Below, piece by piece: positions 1,311-64,000 of a stretch of 64,000 bases of DNA. Numbering within the stretch: position 1 is the first letter of the stretch; each line of letters starts with the position of its first letter. A program made the translations under genes and the position numbers. Below the pieces are notes generated by a model. The model saw nothing but the letters and a program-made list of their open reading frames with translations, had not been told where the DNA came from and searched no databases. The stretch is from Nereocystis luetkeana (taxonomy: Eukaryota > Sar > Phaeophyceae > Laminariales > Laminariaceae): the NCBI GenBank assembly GCA_031213475.1, contig JARUPZ010000017.1, positions 2,299,920-2,363,919 on the forward strand. The letters are read 5' to 3'.

Positions 1311-1417
1311 CTACCTGGTATATACTACGTAGCTCGTATAAAACTGTTCTAATATAATTTCACAGCATGAATGAATGAGCCGCCAACCTTCGAAACGTAA
1401 CTATGAGCGACGGGGTG

Positions 1418-1610
1418 TTTTTTTTTTTTTTTTTTTTTTCATCCCATTCATTATCTTCGCACATCTTCTTCTCTCTCTCCTTCCAACTCGTAACTCAGAT
1501 CCGGGGGCACATAGCAGGCTCTTCTACCCCCTTCCCACTACGGTACGTGCCTTCATTTTTATCGCGAGAAGATTTCAGCCTTTTCTTCCCTCGTCGACTC
1601 GCATCGAATT
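1418..1610 (-). mobile_element. SINE, 5'-truncated
   Basis: Same SINE body as 962-1310, with a long homopolymer tail (T run at 1418-1439) and no tRNA-like head, as expected from incomplete reverse transcription. Confidence 0.75.
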
Positions 1611-1854
1611 GATCGAATAGTGTCGCGTACTATTAACAGTAATTCTGCTGTGTATACTGCTGCACGACAGGCAACGACCCGCCTTCCTCTTCTCCTTTTC
1701 CGGCAGGTGGATCTGCTACTTTGGGTAGATGACCCCTAGGCTACTGGAAAAAAAGTTTAACCAACTAGATGCCCGCTCCCCTGCCTCGTTAGGATCACCG
1801 GTATATTTCGGGGTCGGCGCAGGCGTGTGCCATAGAAGCAGAGAGTCTCCGGAC

Positions 1855-2712
1855 TGTGTGTGTGTGTTCTTCACATTAAACCGTTCTTTCTACCCGTCGA
1901 CATCCAGCACAACCAGTGTCCGTGCCGATTCTTCAATCCTAGAAGAGATACAAGTTCTGTGGTCACTACGCCACAGAGATACTACGTTGCCACGTGTGCA
2001 GTGTGCACTGCATTGGGCAATGCAAAGCCATGTCATCATACTAGATACGATAGGCACGACATACGCAATCTATGAAATAGTGAAACGAAAAGAAACAAGA
2101 ACAAGGTAGACAAATCGAAAGAGAAAAAATGAAAGCAAAATCTAGGAGAAACAATCTGTCGTGCCCCCCCCCGCAGGCGAGGTGGCCAACACTTGAAAAA
2201 GAACGATCTGGAAAATAAAAAAATAAAATAAAATAAGAAAAACACCACTGCTTGTAAACAGAGTAAGACAAAGCACAAATAAAAAAAATAAAAAGGAAAA
2301 ATAACAAAGGGGAAATAACAGGCAGACCAAAGACCAAAGCATCTTCCAGGTGGCGGCAGCAGTTTGTGTACGAGTAGTATAGCCAGGTTCTCCCTGCTAA
2401 TCCGCCTGGTACCTTGCTACCCAGACTGCCGTCTCCGCCCTGCGTTCGTCAACTACGCCCAGCCCCTTGGCGTCAGACAAGACGAAACGAGCAGAGTAGG
2501 TTCGTCATCCAACCACGCCACACGGCTCCTTCAGTACGGCTTATCAATCAGAAAAGGAAGAGAAAACAAAAAAATGAAAATGAAAATCACGGAGAGTCAG
2601 CGCAAGAAAGAAAAAAAAAACAAAAAACAAAAAGAGAAGACAAGGGAAGACCACGTTCGAACCAGCGGCACCAGTTGGTAGCACTACTAGTAGTATGGTC
2701 ATGGTCTATTTT
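1855..2712 (-). mobile_element. LINE 3' end, 5'-truncated
   Basis: The complement of the LINE 3' untranslated region: it begins at the TG-rich tail, then TTCTTCACATTAAACCG, and runs through the G-run and A-rich blocks to just beyond the LINE stop codon. It matches 7317-8010 and 14692-15541 block by block. No open reading frame is retained. Confidence 0.8.
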
Positions 2713-2836
2713 AGGTCCTATTAACTCTTTTAGAAACGCAGTCAGTCCCGTTATGGGGACAAACCAGTCAAATTTCAAGTAGTTTTGTCCCCAAACGGGA
2801 CTGCGGTTCTAAAGTTAACTATGGTCCCCTGTAATA
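2712..2836. mobile_element. MITE1 remnant split by pbMITE
   Basis: GGTCCTATTAAC lies left of the pbMITE and TTAACTATGGTCCCCTGTAAT right of it. Rejoined they give the right arm of MITE1, so this MITE1 arm was present before the pbMITE landed. Confidence 0.7.
2726..2814. mobile_element. pbMITE (piggyBac-like), nested in MITE1
   Basis: An 89-bp palindromic element with the TTTTAGAA...TTCTAAA ends and the GTCCCGTT/ACGGGAC arms of the family. TTAAC is duplicated on both sides (2721-2725 and 2815-2819), and the undisturbed MITE1 sequence has it once. A TTAA target and CCC-type ends are hallmarks of the piggyBac superfamily. Confidence 0.8.
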
Positions 2837-2936
2837 TTTATAGTTGTTGTTCTCACATCGACATCATCATTATAAATTGGTCAACCCTTCGGCACATTGT
2901 CCGATGTCAAACAAGAGCAAAAAAAAAACACGCAAG

Positions 2937-3257
2937 TTTTTTTTTTTTTTTTTCCATTCTTTTTCTTATCCCATTCATTATCTTCACACATCTTGTTCTC
3001 TCTCTCCTTCCAACTCGTAACTCAGATCCGGGGTCACATACTTCATTTTTATCGCGAGAAGATTTCAGCCTTTTCTTCCCTCGTCGACTCGCATCGAATT
3101 GTGCCTACCCACTCTGCAAGGCGCTCTCAACAATTGAATCCTTTTATATTTTTATTTTTGCAAATAAAGTCAAAGTCCGACCCACCTGGGGCTCGAGCCC
3201 AGGACTCAAACACAAGCAGAATTTGAGGTTAACCACTTGAACCACCGGGGTGACCGG
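2937..3257 (-). mobile_element. SINE with internal deletion
   Basis: Head (GGTTCGAACCC-type B box on the minus strand near 3200), body and A-rich tail (T run at 2937-2954) are all present. About 40 bp of the body between CGGGGTCACATA and CTTCATTTTTATCG is missing compared with other copies. Confidence 0.8.
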
Positions 3258-3352
3258 TTCTCCGAACGCACGAATAGGAAAACGCTGTGGATCAGCCCAC
3301 AGAAGAAGCAGACACGGGAGGAGAAGAACGCAACTCGATGCGTTTTAGTCAA

Positions 3353-3441
3353 CCCTTGTAGAACCGCAGTTTGGTTTTGGGAACAATCCGGTCAAGTTAT
3401 AAGTAATTCGTCCCCAAAACGGGACTGCGGTTCTGAAAGGG
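3353..3441. mobile_element. pbMITE
   Basis: Foldback copy between TCAA (a mutated TTAA) and TTAA at 3442-3445. Arms GAACCGCAGT and ACTGCGGTTC pair. Confidence 0.75.
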
Positions 3442-3525
3442 TTAAAGTACGAATGTTCTGTGTCTCATCGGGTTTTTTGTTTTTATTTTTTATCCTATAC
3501 TCCTGCGTTGTTTTCTTTCCTGCAA

Positions 3526-3613
3526 ACCTTTAGAACCGCAGTCCCGTTTTGGGGACAAGCCACTCAAATTTCAAGTAGTTTGTCCCCAAAACGGGACTGC
3601 GGTGCTAAAGGGG
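3526..3613. mobile_element. pbMITE
   Basis: Foldback copy ending GGGG-TTAA at 3614-3617; the left target has decayed to CAAA. It lies directly upstream of a LINE 3' region. Confidence 0.75.
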
Positions 3614-3627
3614 TTAAGAGTATTAAT

Positions 3628-4121
3628 AATATTCTTTGTTTTTGTTCTCTCTCTGGTTGTTTTGTTTCGTTTCTCTATTTCATAGAATGTGTATCTCGTG
3701 CCTGTCGTATCTATTAATATTAATAGTGTGATGACATAATATGGCATTGCTTTGCACAATTCGATCGACGAGGGAAGAAAAGGCTGACATCTTCTCGCGA
3801 TAAAAATGAAGGCACGTACCGTAGCGGGAAGGGGGGAGAAGAGCCTGCTATGCGATCCCGGATCTGAGTTACGAGCTGGAAGGAGAGAGAGAAGAAGATG
3901 AGCGAAGACAATAGATGGGATGAGCAAAAAAAATAAAAAAATAAAAATTGCCCGCCACTGCTGTGCTTACTGCACACGTGGCAACCTAGTGTCTCTGTGG
4001 CGTAGCTTCGTGACCACAGAACTTGTATCTCTTCCAGGATTGAAGAATCGGCACGGACACTGGTTGTGCTGGATGTCGACGGGTAGAAAGAACGGTCTAA
4101 TGTGAAGAACACAAACACACA
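3628..4121 (+). mobile_element. LINE 3' end, interrupted by a SINE
   Basis: Plus-strand LINE 3' untranslated region (TTTCATAGAATGTGTAT... to TCTAATGTGAAGAACAC) ending in an AC-rich tail near 4121. A SINE sits inside it at about 3756-3948; removing the SINE restores the order seen in uninterrupted copies such as 10600-10870. Confidence 0.75.
3756..3948 (+). mobile_element. SINE, 5'-truncated, inside LINE 3' end
   Basis: SINE body from ATTCGATCGACGAGGG to GGGATGAGC followed by an A-rich tail. The tRNA-like head is missing. It is younger than the LINE copy it interrupts. Confidence 0.75.
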
Positions 4122-4324
4122 ACTCCAATTATTATTTGTAATAATGATAGTGTTTTTTTGTTTCTCTTGTTTTTTCCCTATTATTATTATAGAGTGTGTA
4201 TGTCGGGCCTTGTCGTATCCAGGACGATGACATTGTCTGCTCTCCCCACTCACAGCAGAAAACATTGAATCTAATCACAGAAGGAGACAACATAAGACGA
4301 CACTGCAGGCGAGAGAGAGCACGC

Positions 4325-4440
4325 AGACTTGCCAGCCGGCGTCCCCGGCGGCTTGGTCGGTGGTCCGCGTCCCGATCTAGATCAATTTCGTGGGTTCAAG
4401 TCTCACCGAGTGCATGCTCGTAGGGGCTTTTTCTTGCATT
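4325..4440 (+). other. Possible tRNA-like SINE head
   Basis: CTTGGTCGGTGG and GGGTTCAAGTCTC are spaced like A and B boxes of a tRNA promoter. The acceptor stem does not close in my reading, so a working tRNA gene is unlikely; a decayed tRNA-derived SINE head fits better. Confidence 0.3.
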
Positions 4441-4499
4441 AAAAAATATGTGATCAATTAGCGGAAAGCGCGAGAGCGTGAGTTAGCTGCGTTCGATGA

Positions 4500-4685
4500 A
4501 AATCGACGAGCAGGGGGGATGCTGAACCCTATGCGCGACGGAAGATAAAGGCACGTACCGAGGGGGGGAAGGGACGACACCTGTGACCACGGCTTGTCCA
4601 GAAGATCGCCGAGGGTAAAACCTCCTATTAATACGAGCTAGGCTGGAAAGTAAAAGTGATGTAAAAAAAAAAAAACTATTTTTTT
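4500..4685 (+). repeat. Diverged SINE relative
   Basis: It contains GATAAAGGCACGTACCG, a SINE body motif, then GACCACGGCTTG and GCCGAGGGTAAAACC before an A run. The block at 28930-29130 has the same order, so a second SINE subfamily is likely. Confidence 0.4.
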
Positions 4686-4689
4686 CTTG

Positions 4690-4921
4690 TTTCAAGTTTT
4701 CTCTCTTTCATGGGGTATGCCGTGCCTGTCGTATCCAGTACGATGGCATCGCATTGGCATTGCCCACTCTGCTTGCTGCGTACCAGGGAACAATGTACCG
4801 GGTAGTATGACATCTCTGTTGCGTATAGTTTCGTGACCACAGGGCTTGTATCCCTCTAAAGAATCGGCACGGACACTGGTTGTGCTGGATGTCGATGGGT
4901 AGAAAGAACAAAGACTACATA
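4690..4921 (+). mobile_element. Diverged LINE 3' end
   Basis: It matches the last 230 bp of the LINE (CGTGCCTGTCGTATC, GAATCGGCACGGACAC, GATGTCGATGGGTAG) with many substitutions, and stops at an imperfect AC tail. An older copy than those at 9013-10092 or 14692-15541. Confidence 0.7.
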
Positions 4922-4924
4922 CAC

Positions 4925-5616
4925 CTGTAAATCACATGATCTGCGCGCACACTATCATCACGACGAGAGAAGCAGTCATAGTGTGTTTCTCCTGATGATA
5001 TTGTTTTTGACGATGCAGAATAGTATCTACCGGTACATGTTATTAACGTCGTCACTGGTCTTTGTAGTTTAACGAGTTGTATACCCTTCATGGGGAATAA
5101 CCTACGCAAATATCAGGGACGTGGTATCATTACTGTGCTGCACCTTTTTGTGTCCGACAGTCCAGGAAGAGAATCCGATCGTTGATATTCGTGTGATAGT
5201 AAGGTTCGATTGCTCCTTTTTTCACTGCAAATCCGCGAGTCTTCACTCTGACAGCACTCCAGATAGCAGGCAGGTGTGTTCCTCTTTCGTTTTCACGACT
5301 ACCGTGCGTTTCGTACGGTGCAGGCAGCACTTCAGACAGCATCCGCATTAGTCAGCAGCCACGAGTTGGTTAGTGGTGGGAACGGGGGTACTCTATGTTT
5401 TAGTTGAGAGGATATACCCGCGGCCATGTTAGTTCAGTTTGCACATTGGTCTTAGCTCGTGTGCGCTTTCTTCGTCTCGTGTATGTGGAGGCAGCCGAGG
5501 AGGCAGCCGAATTTTCGATTTTTTTGTTTTTTCGGATCTTCCTAGGACTCCAGCACCTTTGTGCGACCACGGTCTCCTTCGTCAGAGAGTTAATGTGAGA
5601 ACAACAACAACAACAT
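4925..5616 (+). mobile_element. AAC-tailed element, plus-strand copy
   Basis: About 690 bp that recurs almost unchanged on the other strand at 8026-8697. It ends GTTAATGTGAGAACAAC in an AAC microsatellite, close to the LINE 3' end TTTAATGTGAAGAACAC. Both strands hold open frames of about 70 codons in both copies, which is not evidence of coding in copies this similar. It may be a non-autonomous element using the LINE machinery, or the 3' end of a related LINE. Confidence 0.65.
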
Positions 5617-5749
5617 AATATCACGTGATGATTCATCCCGAGGCATGTTGCTGTAGCTACTGCTTTGAATCACGTTTGTAATTATTAGGCCCCGGGAGTG
5701 GTTTCCTGTCGCATGTGGTGAGATTATTTCGAACGTTATAGTCGTATAT

Positions 5750-5836
5750 TCCCCGGTCCGCAGCCCCGTTTTGGGAACAAACTACTTGGAACTTGACAGG
5801 CTTGTCCTCAAAACGGGGCTGCGGTCCTGTAAGGGT
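5750..5836. mobile_element. pbMITE
   Basis: Arms CCGCAGCCCCGTTTTGGG and ACGGGGCTGCGG pair; the TTAA flanks have decayed. Confidence 0.65.
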
Positions 5837-5838
5837 TT

Positions 5839-5895
5839 CGTTCTTTCTACCCGTCGACATCAAGCACAACTAGTCAGTGTCCGTGCCCACAATCA
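5839..5895 (-). mobile_element. LINE 3' terminal scrap
   Basis: Complement of the last 50 bp of the LINE (TTCTTTCTACCCGTCGAC, CAGTGTCCGTGCC). Confidence 0.6.
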
Positions 5896-8820: not shown

Positions 8821-8925
8821 TTACGGGGGACCATAGTAAGTAGGACCTACGGTACAGACAAAAACCTATATGTTTCGCTATTTTTACCAACAATACTTGG
8901 TCCTATTTACTATGGTCCTCCGTAA
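8821..8925. mobile_element. MITE1 inside LINE copy a
   Basis: A 105-bp foldback between TTACGGGGGACCATAG and CTATGGTCCTCCGTAA. The LINE sequence TCTTCTAGGATTG is opened with TA on both sides (8819-8820 and 8926-8927), showing a TA target duplication as in the Tc1/mariner superfamily. Confidence 0.85.
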
Positions 8926-8934
8926 TACCTGGTA
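8926..8934. other. TA-CCTGG-TA, putative excision footprint
   Basis: Directly after the MITE1, CCTGGTA is inserted between TA and GGATTG relative to other LINE copies. Removing these 7 bp restores the exact TA duplication of the MITE1. Confidence 0.6.
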
Positions 8935-10274: not shown

Positions 10275-10401
10275 TTACGGGGGACCATATTAAATGGGAC
10301 CTATGTTACAGACAAAAACCTACCAGGTATATATTTCGCTATTCTTACTACCAGGGTATTAATAACAATATTTGGCCCTACTTACTCAGGTCCCCCACAG
10401 T
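10275..10401. mobile_element. MITE1, lengthened copy
   Basis: It starts TTACGGGGGACCAT after TA and ends GGTCCCCCACAGTA. Compared with 8821-8925 it contains CCAGGTA at 10323-10329 and a related TACCAGGGTA near 10349, which account for most of its extra length. Confidence 0.75.
10321..10329. other. TA-CCAGG-TA, putative excision footprint in MITE1
   Basis: The family reads AAAACCTATATGTTTCG and this copy reads AAAACCTA-CCAGGTA-TATATTTCG: a clean 7-bp insertion after TA. Confidence 0.6.
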
Positions 10402-10404: not shown

Positions 10405-10870
10405 GCTGCACGTGCCAAGTGTGTGACACATCGCCTGTGGACGGGGGGGGGGGGGGACCACTGTTTTGTTTCTTCTATTATTCTTTTCTTTTTCGTTTGT
10501 TTGTTTGTTTGTTCGTTTGTTTGTTTGCTTGTTTGTTTTTTTTCTTCTCCTTTCTTTTTCGATTTGTCTTTGTTTCTGTTCTCTCTTTGATTATTTCCTT
10601 TCGATTCCCTATTTCATAGAATGTGTATGTCGTGTCTGTCGTTTTTATTATTGTAATAGTAGCTAGTATGATGACATGACATTGCATTGCCCACTGCTGT
10701 GCTTACTGCATACCAGGTACCTGGTACGTGGCAACGTAGTATCTCTGTGGCGTAGCTTTGTGACCACATAACTTGTATCTCTTCTAGGATGGAAGAATCG
10801 GCACGGACACTGTTTGTGCTGGATGTCGACGGGTAGAAAGAGCGGGTTAATGTGAAAACACACACACATA
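10405..10870 (+). mobile_element. LINE 3' end, 5'-truncated
   Basis: It runs from CACATCGCCTGTGGAC and a G run through a TTTG-rich tract to TTAATGTGAAAACAC and an AC tail. Two stacked 7-bp insertions lie at 10711-10726. Confidence 0.75.
10711..10726. other. Double TA-CCAGG-TA-CCTGG-TA
   Basis: Other LINE copies read ACTGCACACGTGG. Here two 7-bp units, CCAGGTA and CCTGGTA, are stacked in ACTGCATA...CGTGG. Deleting both leaves the family sequence with one substitution. Confidence 0.6.
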
Positions 10871-11838: not shown

Positions 11839-12318
11839 TTACGGGGGACTATAGTAATTATAGGACCAAATGTTGGTACTATAGTAAAAATAGCGAAACA
11901 TATAGGTTTTTGTCTGTACCGTATATCCAATGTAATGCCGGTCGCCCCGGTGGTTCAAGTGGTTAGCCTCGAATTCTGCTTGTGTTTGAGTCCTGGGTTC
12001 GAGCCCCAGGTGGGTTGGACCTTTGACTTTATTTGCAAAAATAAGGATAAAAAAAGATTCAGTTGTTGAGAGCGCCTTGCAGCGTGGGTAGGCACAATTC
12101 GATGCGAGTGGGCGAGGGAAGAAAAGGCTGAAATCTTCTCGCTGCGATAAAAAATGAAGGCACGTACCTGGTATACCGTAACTGGAAGGGGGTAGAAGAG
12201 CCTGCTATGTGACCCCGGATCTGAGTTACGAGTTGGAAGGAGAGAGAGAAGAAGATGTGCGAAGATAATGAATGGGATGAGCAAAAAACAAAACAAAAAA
12301 TAACATGGTCCCCCGTAA
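11839..12318. mobile_element. MITE1 split by a SINE
   Basis: The left part is 11839-11936 (TTACGGGGGACTATAG...) and the right end 12301-12318 (ATGGTCCCCCGTAA). A SINE fills the gap, so the MITE1 is older than the SINE. Confidence 0.75.
11937..12300 (+). mobile_element. tRNA-derived SINE, full length, inside MITE1
   Basis: Complete head GCCGGTCGCCCCGGTGG with A box TGGTTCAAGTGG and B box GGTTCGAGCCC, body, and an A-rich tail at 12282-12300. TACCTGGTA at 12165 adds 9 bp relative to other SINE copies. Confidence 0.85.
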
Positions 12319-17689: not shown

Positions 17690-18345
17690 TTTGCAACTCC
17701 AAGACCCGTTTTTCAAAGTTTTTACACTCTGGACAGATATATCATGATCTACTGTACTGTTGTAGATCTGTTCGATCTTTGTTGGGCACTACTGTATATA
17801 CCTACAACAGTGGATCAATCATATATTACCCAGCATAAAACACGTGCAGATCATACAGATCATACATATTTCACCCCCATGTGAAGGATCTAATTCATAC
17901 AGATCCCACCTAAGAACATATGTGTCATATATCTATTAATAGGTCATCATACAGATCCCATCCAGCCAAGTTTGTGTGTAAGAACCGGATCACACAATAA
18001 TATATCGCATGATCAGTAAAAAACTATACCTGGTATAATCTCCCACAGATCATCCATATCTCAATTATAAATTGACAAAACATGCACAGATCATCATGCA
18101 GATGATACAGGTCCCCCCCAAGCAAAGATATATGAGCTATCTACTAAGATCATTCAGTTCCCACCAAGGAAAACATATGTGTGTATGTGCAAGACCTAGT
18201 TCACTCAGATCCCAGCGGAAACAGAACGTTATCTAGACCTCTAAGACCATACAGATATCGCCTCCAAAAACATAATTGTGAGCGCAATAAGTGGATCATA
18301 CAGATCCCATTTTGCATAACGCGTGCCCAAGCAAGAGCTAGATAA
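17690..18345. repeat. AGATC-rich degenerate repeat
   Basis: CATACAGATC and variants (CAGATCATAC, ACAGATCCCA) recur every 40-90 bp among AT-rich spacers. Related scraps occur at 19260-19310, 20218-20240, 23640-23720 and 42290-42420. TACCTGGTA lies at 18027. No gene seen. From 18345 to 18900 several short frames are open, but nothing was recognised. Confidence 0.6.
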
Positions 18346-22572: not shown

Positions 22573-23886
22573 TCAACAACCCTACACCAAACGACCGTTA
22601 CACCAGAGGGTCGTATCGGCATGTATGTGCTAGGGCCACCATTAAATTCATCGTGAAGCGAAAATTAGGCCGGTGCTTTGACAGTACAACTGTACCCCAG
22701 GGCATACACAGTATATACTGTGGTGTCATCGAGAGGGAGCGGGTCAGTCACATATATATGCACTTCAAGTATATATGTATTACACCTGCTCCCCTGAACT
22801 CATCACGTCAGGAGCTTAGCCGGCATCTCGCCGGCACAGACAGGCGGCTCGGTAGACGGGCCCAGTTCAATCGGTTTCCCAAAGAGATACACACAGTTGA
22901 AAGCATGTGCATCGCAGTCGGCGATGTTCCCAGGACTCTCATCATACTGTACCGAATACATGTTACATGAAAGTACGAGTAAAATCACACACGCCTACAC
23001 ATTAGAGGTACCCTCGTGTGTGTGTATGTATGCCAGGATGCCCCCGCAAGCCATAACGCCCACAAATACTGGTGATGAACACATACATTCAACTTCAGGC
23101 GCACTGTTTGGGGATTACCAAGAAGACTAGACAGGTCTACTAGGCCTGGCCCACCCCTCTCTCAAGTCTTAACCCTCCACCGTGTACTATTTTCGTCTAG
23201 CTTTGGGTCGTCCGTGCGGGTACGAAGTGATGTTCTTCGTTAACATACTGTACGCGGAGTTATCAGTTCGAGTTGTGGTTAAGACATCGTGCTCAGCGAC
23301 AAGCTCGAAATGCCAATGATATAAACCCTCTACTCGTATCGGCTAATTCTATATATGCTCAAGGGTACTCAATGTGGGTGTCTATACGGATTTTCACACA
23401 TCGGACATATGGCACTTACTTGACATGCAGTCACTGGATTATCTGCAGCAGATCATTTGGTTTCCTTTCTGGGATATGTTTGTAGATAGATAGATGGGAT
23501 GCAGGAGCTGCACCATACATATCCCACCCCCGGCAAGCATGTACGAAAGAGCTGTGTAGTACAGATTTCGCACTCAAAAAATATACCAGGTACATAATCT
23601 AAGTCGGCCAAATATTACAGCTCATACTTACTTATCGTAAAACCCATACAGATAATACAACTCATACATATAATACAACTAACTCATACAGATCATACAA
23701 CTCATGCATCTAACCGTCCCTAAATATATATGCAGGTCATGAAATAAATGCAGACCTCATCCCTCCGATGGGTGTAAGGCTTCAAGGGCTGCTCGGACAC
23801 CGTGTTTCACGTTGGCGGGCCCGTGCCGTATACATCCTGTCTCTCCTTGTCTTTCACAGTGTGGGTACCCGTAGCTCACCCCATAT
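22573..23886. other. No gene recognised
   Basis: AT/GC-mixed sequence with short frames only. 23500-23720 has weak AGATC-type repeats (CATACAGATAATAC). TACCAGGTA at 23584. Confidence 0.3.
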
Positions 23887-24722: not shown

Positions 24723-24784
24723 TACCAGGTAGGTGTGTATATATATCCCACCGCACTTCTCCGAGAACGGCGGCGCTGGCGTCG

Positions 24785-26400: not shown

Positions 26401-26676
26401 TGACTTGTATTATGTCGGAGCGGTGGTGTGTCATGCGCAACAGCCGTGGGGTACTACCATACCACACGCCAGGTTCGAGTACCTGGTACGCGTTTATCCG
26501 AAACGTGGTACCATAGTGTACATGCATAGTGATTGTACATACATGGAGACGAAGGAGGGGCGGTGTCGGATACACACATTTTTTATCCCGCCGGTGATGA
26601 TGTGTCGTCGAAAAAATAGCCGTTCCGTATCCCTGCGTACCTGGCACAAACCACACGCATAATAACCATCTGAAAT

Positions 26677-27019: not shown

Positions 27020-27095
27020 AGAACCATACCTGGTAAAAGCATACCAACCTACCACCAATTAATTATCAATTTAAGAGAAACGAGCTAGGCGTAGA

Positions 27096-29133: not shown

Positions 29134-29271
29134 TTACCGGGGGGCATGGAGTAAATAGGACCTACGGTACACACTAAAACCAAAATATATATATATATAT
29201 ATATACCAGGTATATATATATCCCTGTTTTTGCTGACAGTATTTCGTCCTATTTACTATGGCCCCCCGTAA
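29134..29271. mobile_element. MITE1, expanded by a TA run
   Basis: TTACCGGGGGGCATGG to CTATGGCCCCCCGTAA. The centre is expanded by a TA microsatellite that contains TACCAGGTA at 29204. Confidence 0.75.
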
Positions 29272-29288: not shown

Positions 29289-29311
29289 TACCAGGTACCA
29301 GGTACCAGGTA
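29289..29311. other. Triple TA-CCAGG stack
   Basis: TACCAGG three times in a row, closed by TA. Further TACCTGGTA at 29355. Confidence 0.55.
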
Positions 29312-29364
29312 CACGATATGTGCCGATGCCTTGTATAATATACGTACGTGCGTATACCTGGTAT

Positions 29365-30420
29365 GTCTGAAGTTCCTATTATTATTGTAGATCAAACGTT
29401 TCGGGCTGCGTTTCTCTATGTATGTGAAAGCAGAGGCACGTTCGGTGCTACCGCGCGCGAAAACATCTGCGCTATTAACATTTCGAAGCTGGGACACGCG
29501 CGCAAGTATATATATATATGGCAAGCCGAGGCATATTAATAATAGACCCGCCTAAAGGAGTAACGTCGGTTTTCGCCCACCCACTGTCACTGCGGACCTC
29601 CACGAAGTGTTCACGAATCAGGTTATTTATGCACCATCCCGTACCGTAGTAGTCACGATCCCCCCGATCCTCCCCCTGCGGGGCTTTGCAACTCCTACAT
29701 ACAGCTCAATAACATCCAACGGTCGCACCGGCTCTTGATTCAATCTGATTTCCCCCCCCTCCCGCGAGCGACCAGGCGGTCGGGCGGGCAGACGGGTTGG
29801 TGGGATAATCGCTCGATTGTCGCGGGCAAGCTGCCTCTTAGAAGAACGCTGATTACGTTGAAACATCTTCCGCGCGTAGTCACGCAGGGACGGAAGGACC
29901 ACCAGCTAGCTCTCGACGTCCCTTAATCAGGTCTGCCGTCGTACCAGGTGTATATATATATAGATAGCTGCGGTGTAGAACCTGGTGATTGCGGTGATTT
30001 CGCAGGCTGCTGCGCGCTTTGTGTTCGTTGGTCGAAGTATTGAATGGATGACCTGGCATAGCATTTTACCTACCTGCAGTATACACCAGTGTACTGTTGA
30101 AAAACAAACATTGTTTAAACGAAAAAATGAAGTTTATCATATATTTATCGTCTCCTGAAAAAAACAATCACCAAGCACATCAGTTACACTCCCACGGTAC
30201 TTGTAACTCGAACCGTTTATTTTTTTCAATGACCCACCGAGACCGACATACCAACTACCGTACGTTACACACTGCGATCCCCCGATATCGTGGGGTACCC
30301 GATTGAAGAGCTCCCCACTTTAGAGAAAAGACGGAGTAAAGAGCGGATACGGAAATTGTACAGACAGATACCTGGTAAGAAAGAGCGGTTTGGCTGTTCG
30401 TGTCCATTTGCTCTTGATCC
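29365..30420. other. No gene recognised
   Basis: Short frames only. A purine/pyrimidine-skewed stretch at 29745-29790 and scattered TA runs. TACCTGGTA at 30369. Confidence 0.3.
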
Positions 30421-32158: not shown

Positions 32159-32219
32159 AAATAATAAATAATAATAAAAAATTGATAATAATACCAGGTA
32201 TAATAATATTAATATTAAT

Positions 32220-32704: not shown

Positions 32705-33800
32705 TTCTTGTAACTAACTTGGAATACCTCCGGAGTTCGTACGCCCGTTTCACCGATCCTAGGACACGTGATGTATTCCATACCTGGTACCTATCTATTT
32801 ATGGATCATTCAAACGTTCGGTTGATGCTCCCGGGTGACCACTCCTGCCCCAAAGCAGGGGGTGGTGTACCACAGTAGCAGTCCTCAATGGCGCGCTGCT
32901 AAAGTTGAAGAGGGTAAAGAGGCTATGCAGCACCGCTGGCTGCTGCGTGCGATTTTTTATTAAGCTTGATCTAATCTACCCCAGGAGCATTGTTGACTGC
33001 CCGTTACACGGTTTCTCCCGAGTGTTCTAACACCCGGATCTATCTGTGCAGAATGCAAACCTTAGGTTGATCCTGCCACAGCTTTTTCGTAGGTCTCAAC
33101 TCTGTATTATACCGCAACTGAAATGTAGTATCTGCGGGCGTTGCAATACAGGACAGGACGAAGAGAGAGGGTGGAACCTGGAATATTTCCACCCCGAGCC
33201 AAATACTCAGAACAGGGCCTGCGAAGGTGCATGTATCCCTCTACAACACGCCGTCGAAACTGCTGGGATGATCCAAACGAACACTCCCACTGACTCTCCG
33301 CAGCAGTGACGAGACGGACGGGATATTCAAGCCGAGCTAGGGCCTGAGAGCCGCCAGCGAGAGCCCCGCAAGAGGAAACCGGGCCACGGGATCCGAATCC
33401 CTTTTTCCCACGCCAATACTCCAAGCCATCGCAATCGAAAGAACGACCGCACTCCAATTGTTGGCCATGGCCAGAAACGAAAATGGCGAGTGGTGCCCTA
33501 CTCGCCCACCCCCCTCAGAGTATTGCGGAGTGAGTGGCAACCTAACAAATTAACTTCTCGCTTCGCTCCAACGTGGTATACATAGAAGAAGACTCGTAGC
33601 CGATACCAGGGCTAAGTATCCAATGGCAGATGCTCAACAAGCGCTTGGGGTTATATTGAAGTGCAGTCGCAGCAAGGGATTCCATCTTATCCTCCGCGTG
33701 CTACTTTTGAAGCTACAAACTGAGAATTAATGTTCTTCGCGCGCAACCAAGCTCTTCAAGAAAGGGAGACGCGGGTCAACATGCTTCCTCCGAGCAGAAC
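32705..33800. other. No gene recognised
   Basis: Short open frames on both strands at 33046-33540. TAGGTTGATCCTGCCA at 33063-33078 resembles the start of an 18S rRNA gene, but the match does not continue. TACCTGGTA at 32781. Confidence 0.3.
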
Positions 33801-36800: not shown

Positions 36801-37500
36801 GTACTACTAGGAGAGTGCACCGTTTCCTTCTGATAGGGGCTCTACCACGTAAGGTCCACTCAGATCCACTGATGTACCCTGCCGAGTTTATTTTCTGTTC
36901 GTGTGTGGGTGGACGGTTTGGATGCCTTTGCAGAGAACGTTTGTCAAAGATCACACCTTGCACTCCATCAGTTCGCCCTCGAGGGCGATTCCTAGCTGCG
37001 CCGCGATCTTTCACAGTACAGCATTGTGAGGGTGTCCAGCAGCTCAATGAATGGAAGTCGTCGATATCAATGGAGGGCATTGTTGGGCGTTTGCCCCGGG
37101 GCGCGTACCAGGTACAGCACAGGACGTTTCCCCTACTACTACTGCTGTTGTCGACCACCCTGTAGCTGCAAAGGCTAAACGGAGTCCCACGTAACGGAGA
37201 CACGATCGAACGTTCTGATTTTGGGTCTACCTCCAACCCCTGCGGGGCATCCCTCGAACTTGTGGCCTTTCCTGATGCCACTGGGCAGGAAAAACAAGTG
37301 GCAGAGGAACCCACTGCACGCGCGCAACGTTGGTTGGTAGCGCTAGCCTTTTCTGACCAATTTTGATATCGCCGTCCGTGCCGTTCAATCGGTGGGATAC
37401 TACCGTCCGCGAGGTGCGAGTTAAACGTTGCACACTTACTTGGACATGCGGTCTGCTGAGGGCGTAATGCAAGTAAAGCCTTCATCCTCGCCAACCTAGG
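33800..37500 (-). mobile_element. Ty1/copia retrotransposon fossil
   Basis: Minus-strand parts in the Ty1/copia order. Integrase-like region about 36730-37480; a low-complexity linker about 35100-35700; reverse transcriptase about 34400-35100 (peptides such as WVYTHKTDRDG and CVFRMVVDG); RNase H about 33810-34150 (GSASWASS, RCAALSAIKAD). The integrase-before-reverse-transcriptase order is diagnostic of this superfamily. It is broken, with at least a dozen interruptions by impression, and clearly older than the LINE and MITE copies nearby. Terminal repeats were not found, so the ends are approximate. Confidence 0.65.
36085..36235. mobile_element. Decayed MITE3
   Basis: ATCGGGTGAGATATCGAGCT and GTGAGGGGCTACTCAGG recall the right half of MITE3. 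Confidence 0.35.
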
Positions 37501-40546: not shown

Positions 40547-40562
40547 TACCAGGTACCTGGTA
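40547..40562. other. Double TA-CCAGG-TA-CCTGG-TA
   Basis: Two stacked 7-bp units in opposite polarity, as at 10711. Confidence 0.5.
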
Positions 40563-44635: not shown

Positions 44636-45971
44636 GTGAGGATTCGATGGTGCCGCCCACACGTGTTGCTGTCTGTTTACGGCTACGCAGGTCACACAAT
44701 TATCAGCCACCTGCTAAGGAGTGATTGCGCTTACCTGCATCTTCCCCGCAGCCTGTCCGTTTTGCGCCACGAAACTTCCCGCGCTCTCATCAACCGCACG
44801 GGTGACCGAGACCTCCCCCCCTGCACAATGTGGGCCTAAACTCTTCTTTGTGTGGAGACGTTGAACTATGTAGCTCACAGTCAGACGTACCGGACTGAGA
44901 GGCAGTGGATACCTCATGGGGTTTGGTACATTGCCCATTATCTTTGTAAAACATTGGTGCACGCCCACATTATGCAAGAGGGGGGGGTGTGCTGGCCGTC
45001 TGTGAGGGCGTTGCCAGAACGTTAGTGCTAAGGCGACGGCGAGGTCAACCATCGTTCCTGGCAAGTAGCTCAGCAGGGGCTTGCGGAAATCCCGATGTTG
45101 ATGGTAGATACGTGGGGTACGTGAATTCGTGTGAGCCGCCGCGCTTTCTATGACGATGTATTAAAGGCGCCCTTTGTTGTCAAGTAAGTACAAACAACAC
45201 AGATTCCTCTAACTCCGATATGTAATTGGTATGTGAGGCGTGCGGCACAGGGCGGTGCGACACTGCTCCGCCATGACACCGAGTGTGGTGTTCAGACAAC
45301 ACTGCTTTTGACAATGGAGCATGACGCGCGGAAAAACGGAAACACAAGGTACTGGTGCTACGCTAGGACGATTTCAGTCAGGAAGTCGTCCACAAGTGCT
45401 CTTGTTTCAGTCCGCCCCACCCGGGTCAAAAAGGCAACACTACTTAATACCGCGTATATAGAAACTCGGGCAAGTGGGTCCCGTATCCCACTCAAAGTTG
45501 GGCTTGGTTTGCTATGTCGGCACGCAGCGTAACAACCAGTCCCATGGCGTTGCAATATCGCGAAAGGCCTAAAGCTATAACACAAGCCCTCTACAAAGAC
45601 TGCACATAATCTGGATAACCCCCACAGTAGCCGAGTGGCTCTGGGTGGCTGAGAACCAAGGGCCTCACGGCGGCCGCCAACCGTAGCCTAAGTCGAAAGT
45701 ATAGCACCGAGCAGGAGTTGACCGTCCACCTCGAGACCAGCCAGATAAGCGAAAAAGCGAAACTACTACCGACTACTGTAGAGGCGGGGGCAGGCACAGT
45801 GTGTGAGCCCAAGCGAATCGTGTACGTTAACGTTGCTTCTACTGCAGTATTGAGTCTGTTAGATGTTCGTGTAAACCCCGCACGAGTGCGGCGGTAGGGC
45901 GCACACCTGTTGAGTTTCTGAGGCCCGTCAACACATGCTACGTGCGACATAGGGGCACACCTACCAGGTAC

Positions 45972-54500: not shown

Positions 54501-55117
54501 AAGCTCATCACGCCCACAGGCTCGGGGCGGTGGCCTCACACGTGCCCCCCGCCGCTGCCCACAAAGTGTCACAAAGTGTGGTGGTTCTGCTCGGTAAGTT
54601 CGGCCAGGTATCGCATTTTGCATATATATATCAAAGACGAGGCGACACTATTCCAAGACAGCTGGAAATACTCGTGACGTCTGGCTTGCATATTTATCAT
54701 GATGAGCCGCCAAATAAATCATTACGGTAGACAGCCGTAGACCATGATTTCTGGTGAAAACGATGTACCAGGTAGGTACACATTATATACAGAGAGGTCG
54801 TACACGACGATGGTAATTAGTATTATCAATATCTTCAACTTCCGAGACTTCTATGATGATTGTGATAGGCAGAGGGATGACATGTGTGTCGCTTGGCAAT
54901 ACACACACCGCTACCGCTCGAGCAGAGGTTACCAGTGCATTATCCCAGGCCTCACGCCAGAAGAGCCGACCTAGAGTAGACGTGCTGCAGTATCAACCAT
55001 GCTGCCCAAAGCACGTGCTCCCGATACCCAGCGATACCACTCTGCCGACCTTCGACTTTGCGAGAATTGTCTCCTCAGCTTAGGCGTGTAGACCATCTGC
55101 TGACAACCCGCCCCCAG

Positions 55118-55848: not shown

Positions 55849-57149
55849 ATAGATAGCCGGTGTCTCAAGAGTTCGAATCTACGGCAGTGTGCTGAGGGAC
55901 CGATTTACTGTAGTAGTGGTGTGCTTTTGTTCTCATGCGTTCTGCACATATTTCAAGAGTTCTTTACACGACGAATGAATGGGAAATTGGTGCATGGGAA
56001 ATTGATACCAACCAGGATTTTGAGTTAGGATTCGGCAATGTTTTAGAATGTAGTCCTAAATTCGAGCACGTCAACCCTAAGCCATTGTTCTAAACCAGAC
56101 AACGGCCGACTTCGATTTCGTATTCGGTATAATATAGGGACGATGGGGGCAAAGTGTCATGGGTTGGCATAATGTTTCCAGCTGCGGATTTATTTTGAAA
56201 GTTTTATTTCAAACCCAATCCCCTGCCGTAATATTACCGCTCAAATTTACTATCATACCAGGTATGTATTGTGTTGAAACAGCAGCAATGTATTGATCAC
56301 TCATGTAGCGATGCAGACGCACTGTGGGCCTTGTCCGAACCGGAATGATCCAGTTGATTGTTTCAAGTTTAAACATCATCAAGTGGTATAAGATTTGAAT
56401 CTCGAACGACTTCACTTCGCATCAATAAAGCCTCCACCAGAAACTATTACTGGCCTTCAAAAGCCGACTTCGTATAGATCAAACTGCCGCAATATATTAA
56501 GATCCCTTCACCTATTTAAAGGCGTCCGTTAAAAACACGTAGAATTTGATACTTACTTCGGAAGGAGCACGCGTGGGCCATGTTTTTCAAACGTATGCAG
56601 AAGCGGGTGACCTCGGTCGACATCGTACTGATCAAGTCACTCCTCCGGTTAGTTATACACCCGAGCCAAACCCTTACAAAACCGGGGAACTACTTACTTG
56701 GAGAAGGGAGGGAAAGTATATATATATATATATATTATGCTCGTAATTTGTCAGCGCGGTCGGACGGTTTCGTACCGCTCGCAGGCAAAACTTGAGAAAT
56801 AAAGCCGTACGTGGATATATATAAAGAAGGGGTTTTTCACGAGCCTGGCACTTCGAGTGCACACACTTCTTCTATCGGGTATACACAACTAACTGGCCAA
56901 CCCACGAGAAAAACGCCCTGCTAGACGGTCGGCCTGAGAGTCCGAGGAGTACATAAAATACAGTATAAAACGAAAAACCCAAAGAAAGACAAAAAATATC
57001 GAGAACACACCTACCTGTGCTCAGATAAGAAACTAGCCGGTGGCAATAATGGCCTCTCTGTCATCTCACAGCCAGCCTTTACCACCCGACCGGCCTTCCT
57101 ATCGGCCTTCTCATACGTTGTACACGTATTACGCAGTATATTCTAAACG
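55849..57149. other. No gene recognised
   Basis: Short frames; TA run at 56718-56735; TACCAGGTA at 56256. Confidence 0.3.
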
Positions 57150-58512: not shown

Positions 58513-59600
58513 GAGTACCCCCCCCCCCCCCATTCCCTTGTACACCACACCCATGGCGAATATGCGGCGCTGCCTGCTCAGCTCTGCTCCAGCCTCGTGC
58601 CACCTCATCATGAACCGTTCGGCTGCTTCAAGGATCCCCCGGTACCACTTCCCCGCCTTTTTGGCTACAGTGGACCACAACGCGGTCTCAACTCCAGACA
58701 CCAAGGGGGCTACTTCCGTTGACCCTTCGGTGGCTCGGAACTCCCCAAGGTCTTCGACTATGCATCTATGCCAAGTCTTACACTGCCCGCCTGGTCTCGG
58801 GTTCTCCCCACCAGCTATCGTCCCGGGCATTATCCGACAGGGTAATCGCTCCTTGCTTTGCCGTGCCACGCCCCCCGCAAAGAAGAGCCGCCGTTTACGA
58901 ATGGTCGTTTCGATGCTCTCGCAACGTGTCATCTTGAGGGCCTTCGCGTACGAGAGGGTGGCATGGTCAGTACGAAGTCGGCGCTGGAAGCCAATGACTC
59001 GCAACAGGTTTTACAGGACTTTGTAGTGAGCCGTTCAAAGCTTGGCAAAGTGTTCCGCTCTGAGGGTCCACGTCACACACCCGTACAGCAGGGTCTCAAT
59101 CACCTCGGCCTTCAGCATTCGGACTTTAAGGCTAAGGGGGGCGGTCGTCCTATCATACAACTCCGGGCCGAACCGTTTGAGGCATGCTCGCATGAGGCGG
59201 ATCCGTCGGTCGATTTCGAGTGAGAGCGCAGCGCTTTCGTGGATAACGCCGCCTAGGTATATGCACTGGGTCGTCTGCTTATTATACCTCTGACCTGCCG
59301 CTTCGATGACGAGCGGTGGGGCGAGGGTTGCCTGGTCTGGTGTTTATAGAAGCATGGTATCTGTCTTATTTTCCGACTCCGCGAGGCCTATTGCTTCGAA
59401 GACAGTCACGATGACTGGCATCATTTTCGCGAGCCCTTCAGCCGACTGCGAGACAATTCCTGCGTCATCGGCGTGCAACATGCCCCATACAGCCCTTCGC
59501 ACGCACGCCAATGGCTCCTCCTCGTCCGTTCGAACTACTCCAGCTTCACTGAGTTGGACCAAATCCCTTACGATGGCTTCGTCTTGGCTGAAGCGTACCC

Positions 59601-59716
59601 TTACGGGGGACCATTGTTAACAGGACCAAATATAGGCAGTAAAAATGGTTAAATATATACCAGGTAGGTTTTTGTGTATACCATAGGTAGGTCCTATTAG
59701 CAATGCCACCCCGTAA
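59601..59716. mobile_element. MITE1 inside LINE reverse transcriptase
   Basis: The intact copy c reads GCGTACTAGTACG on the matching strand. Here the foldback TTACGGGGGACCATTG...CACCCCGTAA lies between GCGTACCC and TAGTACG, consistent with a TA target. A 7-bp CCAGGTA sits in its centre. Confidence 0.85.
59659..59667. other. TA-CCAGG-TA, putative excision footprint in MITE1
   Basis: The family reads AAATATATAGGTTTTT and this copy AAATATATA-CCAGGTA-GGTTTTT: an exact 7-bp insertion after TA, within an element that is itself nested in a LINE. Confidence 0.6.
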
Positions 59717-60140
59717 TAGTACGACGTGTAACGCAGCAGCGAAGAATGCGTTGAATAGTAACGGTAATAGCCCACAGCCTTGCCGCAGCCCCTGCGTGAC
59801 ATCAAACCATTCTGAGTGCTCGCCGTCATCAGTACGCACGCAAGCCCGCATGCCATCGTGGAAATTACGGATAATTATCAGCATCTTGTCTGGCACGTCA
59901 AAGCGTGTGAGTACCTCCCATAACAGCTCTCGGTCGACAGAGTCGTGCGCTTTCTGCAGATCGATGAAGCACGCGTACAGGGGGAGTTTCGTCTGTCTTC
60001 CGAGCTCTTGCAACCGGCGCACGACGAACAACACATCAATCGTTGATCGTGCGGGGCGGAAGCCGCACTGTTCCTCCGGGAATAATCCCTCATTCTCGCA
60101 GTAGTTGCTGAGGCGGGACGCGACGATTTTCAACAAAACG

Positions 60141-60837
60141 TGTACGAAATATTCGTGGTCACTGCTGTACAACAATCGTGAAAACCTACGTATTACGAGT
60201 GCATTACCCCGAGATAATTACGCCATTATTTTCTCGCTGTGCCGTTGATCTGGGAAGCAATTCCTAGCAGCTACAACATCTACCATAGCGGGAGTTTGCG
60301 CCCTTGTCCGCGTATACCGTATGCCCCTGTGTTCCCAATAGGTCGACCGCAGCGGACTAAGTCACTCCGATGTTCGTATGTAACGTACGCGGCTGTATTT
60401 CCTGGTTTCAGGGCGCGGTACGCGGTACGCGGTACCTGGTTTTGAGGCATAACCGGATACTCGCGCCGTTACCCCTCGCGGTCGCAATAGGATGCAAATT
60501 TTCTCAGACAACTCCCACGCCGAGTCTGCAGTTTCGAGCCTGTGGCTTCAGCTGAAGGACTTGATGGTTTCGTTGGTAGTGGCGATAGGGCAGCGCAATT
60601 ATTTGTTCTCAATTTCGGGCCGACGTTTACAGCGGGTTAGTTCTGGTTTCTCCTCTCGTGGGGACGTTAATGCGCAACATACGTTCGATATTTACCATGA
60701 ACAAATACCCTCGGTCCCGAGGGTGAATAAAACACGATGCCATCGCGTGCTCCCCGTGTCTGGCGCCGCATGATGAAAGTAAGTGACGTCGCTCGTCTTT
60801 CAACTCTTTAGTGATAGGGTCGGGACCGGTTTTGTCT
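60141..60837. other. No gene recognised
   Basis: One plus-strand frame (60492-60773, 93 codons) is open but carries no motif I know. Confidence 0.3.
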
Positions 60838-61140
60838 CACGGGTTTAATGTTGGGCGGTCGGAATGACTTGTGTTAACCACCCCCGCGCGCTGTCATACA
60901 TGCTGTCGCGTCGCTGTTCACCCCATCACATGCTTGGTACACGGGTCTAACGTTGGGCGGTCGGAATTACTTGTGTTAACCACCCCCGCGCGCTGTCATA
61001 CATGCTGTTACGTCGCTGTTCCCCCTATCACATGCTTGGTACACTGGTGTAATGTTGGGCGGTCGGAATTACTTGTGTTTACCACCCCCGCGCGCTGTCA
61101 TACATGCTGTCCCGTCGCTGTTCACCCCATCACATGCGCG
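60838..61140 (+). repeat. 102-bp tandem repeat, three copies
   Basis: TGTTGGGCGGTCGGAATTAC recurs at 60849, 60951 and 61053, a period of exactly 102 bp, so frame is kept. In the plus frame from 60871 each unit reads LTTPARCHTCCxVAVxPITC, Cys-rich. Copies are about 95% alike. Whether it is translated is unknown. Confidence 0.8.
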
Positions 61141-61408
61141 TAGGCGTCGGGCCCGCCCGTGCGTTGGCTTCGCCTTGCAAGACGCGGTCAGTCGTTTTCC
61201 CGCACGGGCCACCGCTCTTTCGCGGACGCTGAGCGTGCCCCACCGTAAGGGGGCTCCAGTGGCTCTGTTCCCGCTCCGATGTCGGTCTGCCCCTGGGAGG
61301 GATGACTTCACCCGGAGCTTCTCATTTGTCAGGAGCTAGGGTGACAAGACGCTGTCTACAGACAGTGCTTCCTTTTGCAACTCTCGCGTTTCGTTCTCAT
61401 GCGCTGGG

Positions 61409-62112
61409 TGAATGCGTGCCTCTGCTTCAGCTAAGCAAGCGTCGCATCGCGCTGGCTTTCTCACGTACGCCCGGTTGGTTGTGCATCCGGGGGAGCTACC
61501 GTTACTGGCCCTGCGCCGGACCATTTGGCTGCCGGGGAAACGTGTGCCTCTGCTTGAGCGGAGCAGGTGCCGCATAGTGTTGGCTTCCTCATGCACGTCT
61601 CGTTTGTCATTTATCTGGGGGGGCTAGGGTTTACTGGTCAAGGAACGCGTGCCTTTACTTCAGCAAGGCAAGCGTCGCATGACGTCGGTTTTCTCACGTA
61701 CGCCTGGCGTGCCGTTCATCTGAGGGGGAGGCACCGTTTACTGGTCCAGCGTCGCACAATTTAGTGGAACGTGTGTCCCTGCCCCAGCGCAGCAGGGGTA
61801 TCATACCGTTCACAAGGGGGACGCGTCCCTCTGCTTTACCAAAGCAGGCGTCGCATCGCGTTGACTTTCTCATGTACGCAAGGTTTGTCGTTCATGCGGG
61901 GGAGTCCACGCTTACTGGTCCTACGTCGGACCTTTTAGTTGCCGGGGGAACATGTGCCTCCGCTTCGGCGAAGCAGGTGTCACACAATGTTGACTTCCTC
62001 GTGCGCGTCCAGTTTACCGCTCATCCAGGGGAGATAGCGCTTACTGGCCCTGCGTCGGACCACTTCTGTTTACCGGGGGGGGCGTATGCCTCTGCTTGAG
62101 CGAAGGGGGTAT
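61409..62112 (+). repeat. About 129-bp degenerate tandem repeat (43 residues)
   Basis: GTGCCTCTGCTTCAGC-like starts occur at 61416, 61544, 61649, 61773, 61824, 61954 and 62084, mostly 124-130 bp apart. The best frame (61764-62099) holds two full units: ASAKQASHRVDFLMYARFVV... and ASAKQVSHNVDFLVRVQFTA.... Nucleotide copies are well diverged while ASAKQ-SH--DFL is kept, which hints at past coding. Family unknown. Confidence 0.65.
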
Positions 62113-62439
62113 CGCACTTGCCTCGATTTGACGTCTGATTAGTCGTTTATTGGAGGGTATGTGTTTTCAAGCACCATGTATGTGCTGGTCTGGCGACAGA
62201 CCATCCTCGAGTGCTGGTTGGACGTCGTGTGTGCTCATACTTGTTAACGGCGTGGGTACTCCCCTGTTCGAGTGCTGGTTGCCGTCTACAGTGAGTGGGG
62301 GACTGTGGTGTTGCAGTCAGTCCGTATTGTTCTGTCCAGCTTCGTGGATTCCATGGGCAATATGTTTTCCGTGGGGGGCTCGCGAAATGGGCCGTTTGTC
62401 CCGTTGCCCCCACCAAATATTCTCGTTTCTGCGGGTCAA

Positions 62440-63045
62440 GCGGTGGCGGGCTACTGCGGTTTGGTTGCGAGGGGACAACCAAGCAGTCGTGGAGTGGGGT
62501 GCGACGGTGACATGGTGGTAAGGAGCGGTGGTCAGGTGTACTGCCGCGCCTCCTTGGCGTGGTGGACTCGAGTGACGTCTAGTTGTACCCCTCGTCGACC
62601 CCCCCCCGGTTGCGTTCGGTATTGGTTACAGCAAGTGGTCCATGTGGACACTGCACCAAGCGCTTGCTCCCCTGCGAGCAGCGGTTGCGTTGGTGGGCGT
62701 ACGGGCGGAAGATAACGCCCCGCACTTCCTGAGGATTGGAAGCGCAATTCGCCTGTCGGCCGGGGAGGCTACACCGGAGGTCTGGCGGCGGGAGGGTCGG
62801 TGGGCGTCCGACACGTAAGAGGCGTACGTACGAAGTCACGGGAAGGAGGCCGGTTGAGTGACAGACGTGATGGCCCAAGTGGGCACGAGTGACGGGCTCT
62901 AACCTGAGCAACATACGGAGTGGGGCAAGCGAGTAAAACTCCCCGAACTGGGTTGGAAGCGGAAACACTTGGACGATGTGTAGCCACTCATCCGCGGACC
63001 GGTTCGAAGGAAGGATAAGCTGTATAGTACTGATAGTACCGCAAT
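62440..63045 (+). mobile_element. Tyrosine-recombinase (DIRS-type) retroelement fossil
   Basis: RNase H-like RGDNQAVVEWG near 62465, and at 62721-62817 a tyrosine recombinase C-terminal stretch: the H-x-x-R box in HFLRIG, then AIRLSAGEATPEVW and GRWASDT. Reverse transcriptase/RNase H followed by a tyrosine recombinase is the DIRS/Ngaro arrangement. Broken, with several interruptions; ends not identified. The tandem repeats just upstream may or may not belong to it. Confidence 0.55.
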
Positions 63046-64000
63046 AAGCGCGCGGGCGGGAGGGGGGGGGGGGTAGCGTAGGCGTCCGAAATTGAGCCAA
63101 CCCCATGTTGGAGGCTGGCGTCGAGAGATCGACATCGCCAGTGGGAATGAAGTTTGACTCAGGTTGCCGGATGATAGGAGGGCGTTGGTACTGGAGCAGC
63201 TCCGGGGGTCTGCCCCTCTCTCCACGCCCCTTCCTCCGGGCGAGGGGCGCTCATTAATATGATACAACTTCGAAAGCAAAATGCAAAGCGGAGTATTATC
63301 GAGGTACGAGAAAATACGTGTTTTGTATGTACGGAAGAAGTTGACCAATCAGATCAACACGGGTTGTTGTCCCCGTATATAGCCTAGAAGTGCACCTGGG
63401 ACCAGTTCTGCTGTAGCAGTTGACTCGCGATCGAGAGGACGCAGCGAGGCAGGGTCGTCAAGACAGGTGCAAGGTGTGGTAAAGACTTGTGTAGCTTCCC
63501 ACCCACCCACCCGTGTTTTTGAGGGAGCCAGTGGAGGGGGAGTTACCTAGCCGCAGCAGCGGTATGGGGCATCGATTGGCTGCTGTTTGGTATACGTACG
63601 TAGTGGGTGCCGGGGTTGGCGCCCAAGAGTGCATCAGTTCTTGGTATGACGCGGGGGACACTGCTGTTTATTTCGCTCTGGGTTCGGCTTGCGCTTCCCC
63701 AGGCTGGGGGCGCTCTTTCCCCGGCCGAGGGCATGCATCACTTGACGCATATAATACGGGGGAGTGAGCAGCACGCCCTGCATGCACGTCATGGGGTGGC
63801 GTCATCAGCTTGGATAGAGGCGCGCAATCTGAAACCTAGGAGAGAGGTTATTATCGATGGTAGGGATGGGATGGGGCGTGGAGTACATTTCGTGTTGCTT
63901 ACACGGGTTCCTTTTGGTGTGCGTTGGTATGTATACGTCATATATATAATACCAGGTACGCGGTTATTCTGTGTACATGGTTGGTGCATACTACGTGTAC
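63046..64000. other. No gene recognised; CCAAT/TATA-like spacing
   Basis: A G run at 63061-63074. GACCAATCAG at about 63342 is followed 30 bp later by CGTATATAGCC, a promoter-like spacing that could be chance or part of the neighbouring fossil. Short frames only. TACCAGGTA at 63950. Confidence 0.25.

Follow-up and report, generated by a model that had tools for sequence, protein, structure and literature searches.

The palindromic 9-mer TACC(A/T)GGTA recurs across a 64-kb stretch of the genome of the brown alga Nereocystis luetkeana (contig JARUPZ010000017.1, positions 2,299,920 to 2,363,919; hereafter the window, whose own numbering is used throughout). We consider it likely that these 9-mers are the excision footprints of a TA-targeting, Tc1/mariner-like cut-and-paste element with ends 5'-CCAG(G) or CCTG(G). 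That the 9-mer was gained by insertion, and is not an ancient motif, is well supported by comparison with repeat copies in the same window. The scar reading was put forward in an earlier note on this DNA and is probably right; it is better supported now than when it was proposed.

A dispersed 9-mer with an A or T centre

TACC(A/T)GGTA has 27 exact matches at 23 places in the whole window. Dinucleotide shuffles gave a mean of 0.38 matches and a maximum of 2 (n = 100), and third-order Markov sequences a mean of 0.78 and a maximum of 5 (n = 200). After a simple-sequence filter it is the top 9-mer of the window; second comes ACCAGGTAC (n = 16), which overlaps it, and no independent 9-mer has more than 15 copies. 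It also ranks first among short TA-bounded motifs (classes TA-X-W-X'-TA, TA-X-S-X'-TA and TA-X-X'-TA, half-sites of 1–3 bases, at least three copies), with 27 seen against 0.68 expected. Chance and composition are ruled out as its source by these shuffle, Markov and motif-class counts. The earlier note had listed the same 27 matches at 23 places, and all were recovered at its coordinates with a single correction, of 59659 to 59658; it had also rightly placed the count far above chance, with about 0.5 expected.

The centre base is A in 16 cases and T in 11, as the same note had described; C never occurs there and G twice, so that the form with a C/G centre (2 seen, 0.70 expected) lies near chance. 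Single-base variants of the 9-mer number 26 in the 12 outer-position classes, where about 15 are expected. This modest excess suggests that the majority of scars are still intact and, set against 27 exact copies, argues for a regular reaction, although footprints can be irregular, as described for Hsmar2 (PMC3770610).

Gain of the 9-mer at TA dinucleotides

Each scar with 150 bp per side was aligned against the window, and the 119 insertions of at least 3 bp between paralogous copies in the window were listed. Insertions carrying CCWGG (W, A or T) at a TA were found at 10321, 59658, 10711 and 12165, and possibly at 10351. At 10321 and 59658 a TA has gained exactly 7 bp, relative to four and five copies without the scar, respectively. 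At 10711 the gain is 14 bp, equal to two tandem scars, and five copies lack it. The gain at 12165 is CCTGGTATA, absent from five copies (six in the list of insertions, one copy perhaps being counted twice). The gain at 10351 would be aberrant, 14 or 9 bp, with a single copy lacking it.

At 8926 the scar adjoins a miniature inverted-repeat transposable element (MITE), and the right TA of the MITE's target-site duplication (TSD) doubles as the scar's left TA. With MITE and scar omitted, the joined flanks form an ungapped 120-bp alignment with 15400–15519 at 99.2% identity, which indicates that the MITE and the scarred insertion both struck one TA. Four further copies without the scar match the joined flanks at 94–97.5% (119–120 bp); with wider flanks, identity to the closest copy is 95.3% across 191 alignment columns. 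The exact 7-bp gain described in the earlier note therefore stands for 10321 and 59658, and for 8926 only once the adjoining MITE is accounted for. A gain at a TA leaving flanking TAs, as in Tc1/mariner footprints, is exact at these three sites and departs from the simple form at 12165 and 10711. The likeness of the 8926 copy to an unscarred one suggests recent scar activity, to which we assign no date; the other scarred copies tested are more distant from their unscarred relatives.

Two irregular sequences lie in related repeats. A paralog of the 10711 repeat (4781–4804) has TACCAGGGAACAATGTACCGGGTA close to the corresponding spot, possibly an irregular footprint, and a MITE copy has TACCTGG inserted at GG/TC (31011–31019, TACCTGGTC), possibly a decayed scar.

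The flanks of the scars

For each of the 23 scar runs both flanks were read from the TA outward, giving 46 flanks. Position 1 is T in 22 (14.0 expected) and A in 3 (8.8 expected), position 2 is a purine in 38 of 46 (22.4 expected, P = 4e-6) and position 3 is T in 21 of 46 (12.5 expected). Pyrimidine-purine (YR) stands on both sides at 8 of the 23 sites, compared with 10.9% of all TAs (P = 0.002). When nine sites in or beside repeats and microsatellites were dropped and 14 of 23 kept, position 2 was still a purine in 23 of 28 flanks (P = 4e-4). No significant purine bias at position 2 is seen in the flanks of TACWGTA, TATTAATA, TACCGGTA and TACCATA in the window (P = 0.29–1).

This palindromic Y-R-T preference outward from the TA, strongest at R, is what insertion-site choice would give. 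In principle the same flanks could arise from a longer palindromic motif, though the gains relative to paralogs speak against it. The scar flanks, A-Y-R-TA-Y-R-T, resemble the target consensus of Sleeping Beauty, AYATATRT, in their outward T-R-T preference.

Scars cluster near a MITE family and in tandem

Twelve copies of a near-palindromic MITE of about 105 bp (TTACGGGGGACCATAG...), with TTACGGGGGACC ends, were picked by hand; their ends are approximate and some are decayed. A TA target duplication was shown at the copy at 8821–8925, and the copy at 59601–59719 stands as 118 bp of inserted sequence when its host repeat is compared with another copy of that repeat. In three copies (10321, 29204 and 59658) the scar sits on, or close to, a shared centre TA. 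On a tree of the MITEs built with the scar left out, three changes account for the scar, and a single change suffices in 0% of 200 bootstrap trees; none of the branches has strong support, and shuffling the labels gives just as many changes (mean 2.8). A single origin of the scar in the MITEs with later losses may therefore also account for these copies. In MITE-family orientation the centre base at 10321 differs from that at 59658.

A MITE copy lies no more than 100 bp away from eight of the 23 scar sites, where 2.2 would be expected for random TAs (P = 0.001; six distances were tried, with P from 0.001 to 0.07), and there are four tandem joins of scars against 0.2 expected. This clustering and the excess of tandems over random TA choice suggest that some targets are preferred or that re-insertion is local.

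A model for the scars and its relation to known systems

Our model is of a DNA transposon that would pick a TA, duplicate it on insertion and later leave by staggered cuts, so that a few terminal nucleotides would stay as 3' overhangs on both flanks. With ends CCAG(G)/CCTG(G), these overhangs could pair through their C:G positions around one central A-A or T-T mismatch; joining and mismatch repair would then settle on one base or the other, with TACCAGGTA or TACCTGGTA as the product and a net gain of 7 bp at the TA. A 5-nt overhang from CCAGG/CCTGG ends would yield TACC(A/T)GGTA with a single central mismatch. A 4-nt overhang, CCAG, annealed over C-A-G and filled in would give the identical product, and a 3-nt overhang, CCA, could reach it only if the ends were joined unpaired. 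From the scars we thus infer the element itself, its ends, an overhang of 4 or 5 nt, a DDE/D transposase and the route of repair. The scar reading of the earlier note is well supported by the gains at TA, the W-only centre and the symmetric YR target choice; its 5-nt stagger, by our own reasoning, is not forced because the 4-nt overhang gives the same scars.

In the account of excision in PMC8151067, a Tc1/mariner transposase cleaves the non-transferred strand a few nucleotides within its element, and the 3' overhangs that result are joined to form the footprint; the break is placed two or three nucleotides inside the element in a passage of PMC2642840, and overhangs of 2 or 3 bp are given in part of PMC3878927. 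For Sleeping Beauty the footprint is listed as C(A/T)GTA in a table of PMC3878927 and as C(A/T)G between TAs in PMC8151067, and a passage of one review gives TAG(T/A)CTA (PMC2874221). The present scars thus share with Sleeping Beauty and Frog Prince, of the Tc1 branch, the TA target and the alternative A/T centre, and an analogous logic with a shorter overhang would apply there; they differ in having 5 nt between the TAs instead of 3. TACWGTA was considered as a second scar type and rejected: it occurs 28 times against 8 expected, yet no paralog shows a gain. Its excess spans 15644–56959 and is mostly dispersed, with 5 of the 28 copies at 27590–27676, in or beside a tandem array. TACSGTA is likewise raised (17 versus 8.6), inside the simulated maximum of 18.

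The mauritiana mariner Mos1 also targets TA, and the inverted terminal repeat (ITR) at its 5' end starts CCAGG, the end that this scar requires, in most of the copies listed in PMC3419177. Its 3' ITR starts TCAGG in most of those copies, and a 3-base overhang is described in the same source, unlike the ends and overhang expected from the scar. Mos1-type 3-nt scars, TACCATA/TATGGTA, show no clear excess in the window (14 versus 9.4, P = 0.075), nor do 3+3, 4-nt or 5+5 footprints show a significant one. TACCGGTA was rejected as a scar; it has 7 copies against 1.2 expected, among which are pairs in related contexts (143/283 and 5028/8589) and one overlapping pair (18852/18858), and no paralog shows a gain. 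Stowaway-like MITEs mobilised with mariner transposases leave terminal bases and the TA duplication on excision (PMC4561436, in part), as is proposed here; in contrast, the window yielded no MITE whose ends match the scar. In the brown alga Ectocarpus, Mariner-Tc1 elements form 17 families with almost 12,000 copies, mostly non-autonomous, according to PMC12477816, the main text of which contains neither 'footprint' nor 'excision'.

Evidence against excision and alternative explanations

Several results weigh against excision footprints. The scars have 5 nt between the TAs, outside the 2–4 bp given for Tc1/mariner excision in a passage of PMC7913693. The gain at 12165 is 9 bp, with an extra TA, instead of 7, and CA stands at the site in all five empty copies for 10711 and in one of five for 8926. 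Tandem scars require a hotspot or nested insertion besides simple excision. Among the flanks, T at position 3 loses significance once repeat sites are removed (11 of 28, P = 0.2), and purines are also slightly in excess at position 2 of all the remaining TA-N5-TA sites taken together (260 of 484, with about 49% at all TAs).

The element, too, is missing from the window. The search for a CCAGG-ended element suggested in the earlier note was run within the 64 kb and found no inverted-repeat element with CCWGG or CCWG ends. The 173 TA-CCWGG...CCWGG-TA pairs spaced 40–6000 bp agree at best in 15 of 20 terminal bases, in TA-rich sequence, and a wider scan for TA-bounded inverted repeats (60–6000 bp, 15 or more of 20 bases matching, simple sequence excluded) gave 115 pairs, none with a CC(A/T)G start. 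No Pfam transposase domain was found in the frames scanned (all six for 19,000–63,900 with two gaps of about 100 bases, and four of six, without two minus frames, for 4,100–19,000, but none of 1–4,100) or in 10 of the 17 listed open reading frames of at least 200 aa. Three Tc1-type motifs had no match in all six frames of the window.

Among the alternatives, insertion of a 7-bp unit by other means, whether templated filler synthesis at breaks or slippage of a heptamer TACCWGG, is unlikely. It would suit the tandem heptamer arrays at 10711, 29289 and 40547, the gains of 9 and 14 bp alongside 7, and the lack of an element in the window, but it does not lead one to expect insertion at TA with a symmetric YR preference at 23 dispersed places. 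Two of the three tandems alternate A and T centres, which slippage would not directly produce, and we know of no filler process giving one fixed palindrome with an A/T centre. Somewhat less likely again is a TA transposon with an unusually long stagger of 4–5 nt and very ready, perhaps programmed or domesticated, excision, which would leave dense, uniform scars while its copies became rare or confined to the germline.

It is very unlikely that the scars stem from the window's own TTACGGGGGACC MITE family: its ends, TTACGG, cannot yield CC(A/T)GG by the footprint logic, and scars within three copies and beside others fit TA-rich MITEs as targets, even though the family used TA at the one copy tested and lies close to many scar sites. 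It is highly improbable that the window shows a somatic genome in which developmental removal of the element's germline copies left a scar for each. The 27 scars beside no element found in 64 kb, and the tandem scars that nested insertion at TSDs would give without repeated cycles, accord with such removal; other TA MITEs and reverse-transcriptase elements are still in place, and ordinary excision suffices. Least probable of all is selective conservation of TACCWGGTA as a binding or regulatory motif. Palindromic and dense, with flanks that could belong to a longer palindrome, the 9-mer has the look of one, but it was gained by insertion, with 4–5 paralogs lacking it at each of five sites, and it breaks up a microsatellite; point mutation cannot make such gains.

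Other features of the window and database matches

The window codes sparsely, and this, together with its reverse-transcriptase elements, MITEs and microsatellites, points to eukaryotic DNA. A further family of short palindromic repeats (GCAGTCCCGTTTTGGGGACAA...) lies at 2733, 3357, 3529, 5751, 27738, 28569, 30422, 31436 and 51778; TTAACCC-like ends are present in some of them, and we take the family to be piggyBac-like in outline. The only domains detected by Pfam in the frames scanned were reverse transcriptase (RVT_1), in fragments of a repeated element at 12854–14008 and 59546–60217, and a weak galactose-3-O-sulfotransferase fragment at 43905–44039 (27 bits, cut-off 27), perhaps an exon. 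Another copy of the downstream part of the RVT_1 element, itself without a Pfam match, lies at 6606–7316. The reverse transcriptase gave only distant plasmid matches (four records, 24–29% identity). Searches of the window for tRNA and Rfam families found none.

In IMG/VR, the exact patterns and the reverse transcriptase retrieved no recognisable DNA of the same species. The double-scar pattern matched nine contigs, with two copies in each of eight and three in one (the defining two included); these are probably chance matches. Among the matches listed, no title or abstract opening reported the footprint, which is weak evidence of absence, and of the 19 papers containing the strings TACCAGGTA or TACCTGGTA, none is about transposons by its title.

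Table 1 Scar sites and MITE copies in the window
Feature	Position	Evidence
Scar TACCTGGTA, at edge of dispersed repeat	1312..1320	Exact match, repeat alignment
MITE of TTACGGGGGACC family, inserted at TA of 8926 scar	8821..8925	Gapless 120-bp match, 99.2%, once MITE and scar omitted
Scar TACCTGGTA, 7-bp gain at TA	8926..8934	Exact match, paralog comparison
Scar TACCAGGTA, centre of MITE copy, 7-bp gain at TA	10321..10329	4 copies without scar; 3 under stricter flank filter
Possible aberrant scar, 14-bp (CCAGGGTATTAATA) or 9-bp gain at TA by alignment	10351..10364	1 empty copy per alignment
Tandem double scar TACCAGGTACCTGGTA, 14-bp gain	10711..10726	5 empty copies, with CA instead of TA
Scar TACCTGGTA, 9-bp gain (extra TA)	12165..12173	5 copies with 9-bp gap
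Scar TACCTGGTA, no spanning paralog in window	18027..18035	Exact match, window alignment
Scar TACCAGGTA, no spanning paralog in window	23584..23592	Exact match, window alignment
Scar TACCAGGTA	24723..24731	Exact match
Scar TACCTGGTA	26480..26488	Exact match
Scar TACCTGGTA	27027..27035	Exact match
Scar TACCAGGTA, (TA)n centre of MITE copy; (TA)n hides gain length	29204..29212	Exact match, alignment
Tandem triple scar TACCAGGTACCAGGTACCAGGTA, adjoins MITE copy	29289..29311	Exact match
Scar TACCTGGTA	29355..29363	Exact match
Scar TACCTGGTA	30369..30377	Exact match
Scar TACCAGGTA, breaks up (TAA)n microsatellite	32192..32200	Exact match, alignment
Scar TACCTGGTA	32781..32789	Exact match
Scar TACCAGGTA	37106..37114	Exact match
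Tandem double scar TACCAGGTACCTGGTA	40547..40562	Exact match
Scar TACCAGGTA	45962..45970	Exact match
Scar TACCAGGTA	54766..54774	Exact match
Scar TACCAGGTA	56256..56264	Exact match
Scar TACCAGGTA, 7-bp gain at the same TA in the centre of a further MITE copy	59658..59666	5 empty copies
Scar TACCAGGTA	63950..63958	Exact match
MITE copies 1–6	8821-8925, 10101-10211, 10270-10396, 11839-11936, 21799-21907, 24538-24640	
MITE copies 7–12	28357-28461, 29132-29273, 30922-31044, 32598-32705, 55352-55462, 59601-59719	

Implications

If the 9-mers are excision footprints, they record past jumps of an element that is not seen in this stretch, and its ends (TA-CCAG(G)), stagger and choice of target can be predicted from them. 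The history of excision would then be countable directly from the genome sequence. A uniform 5-nt footprint would also extend the 2–4 bp range stated for Tc1/mariner excision.

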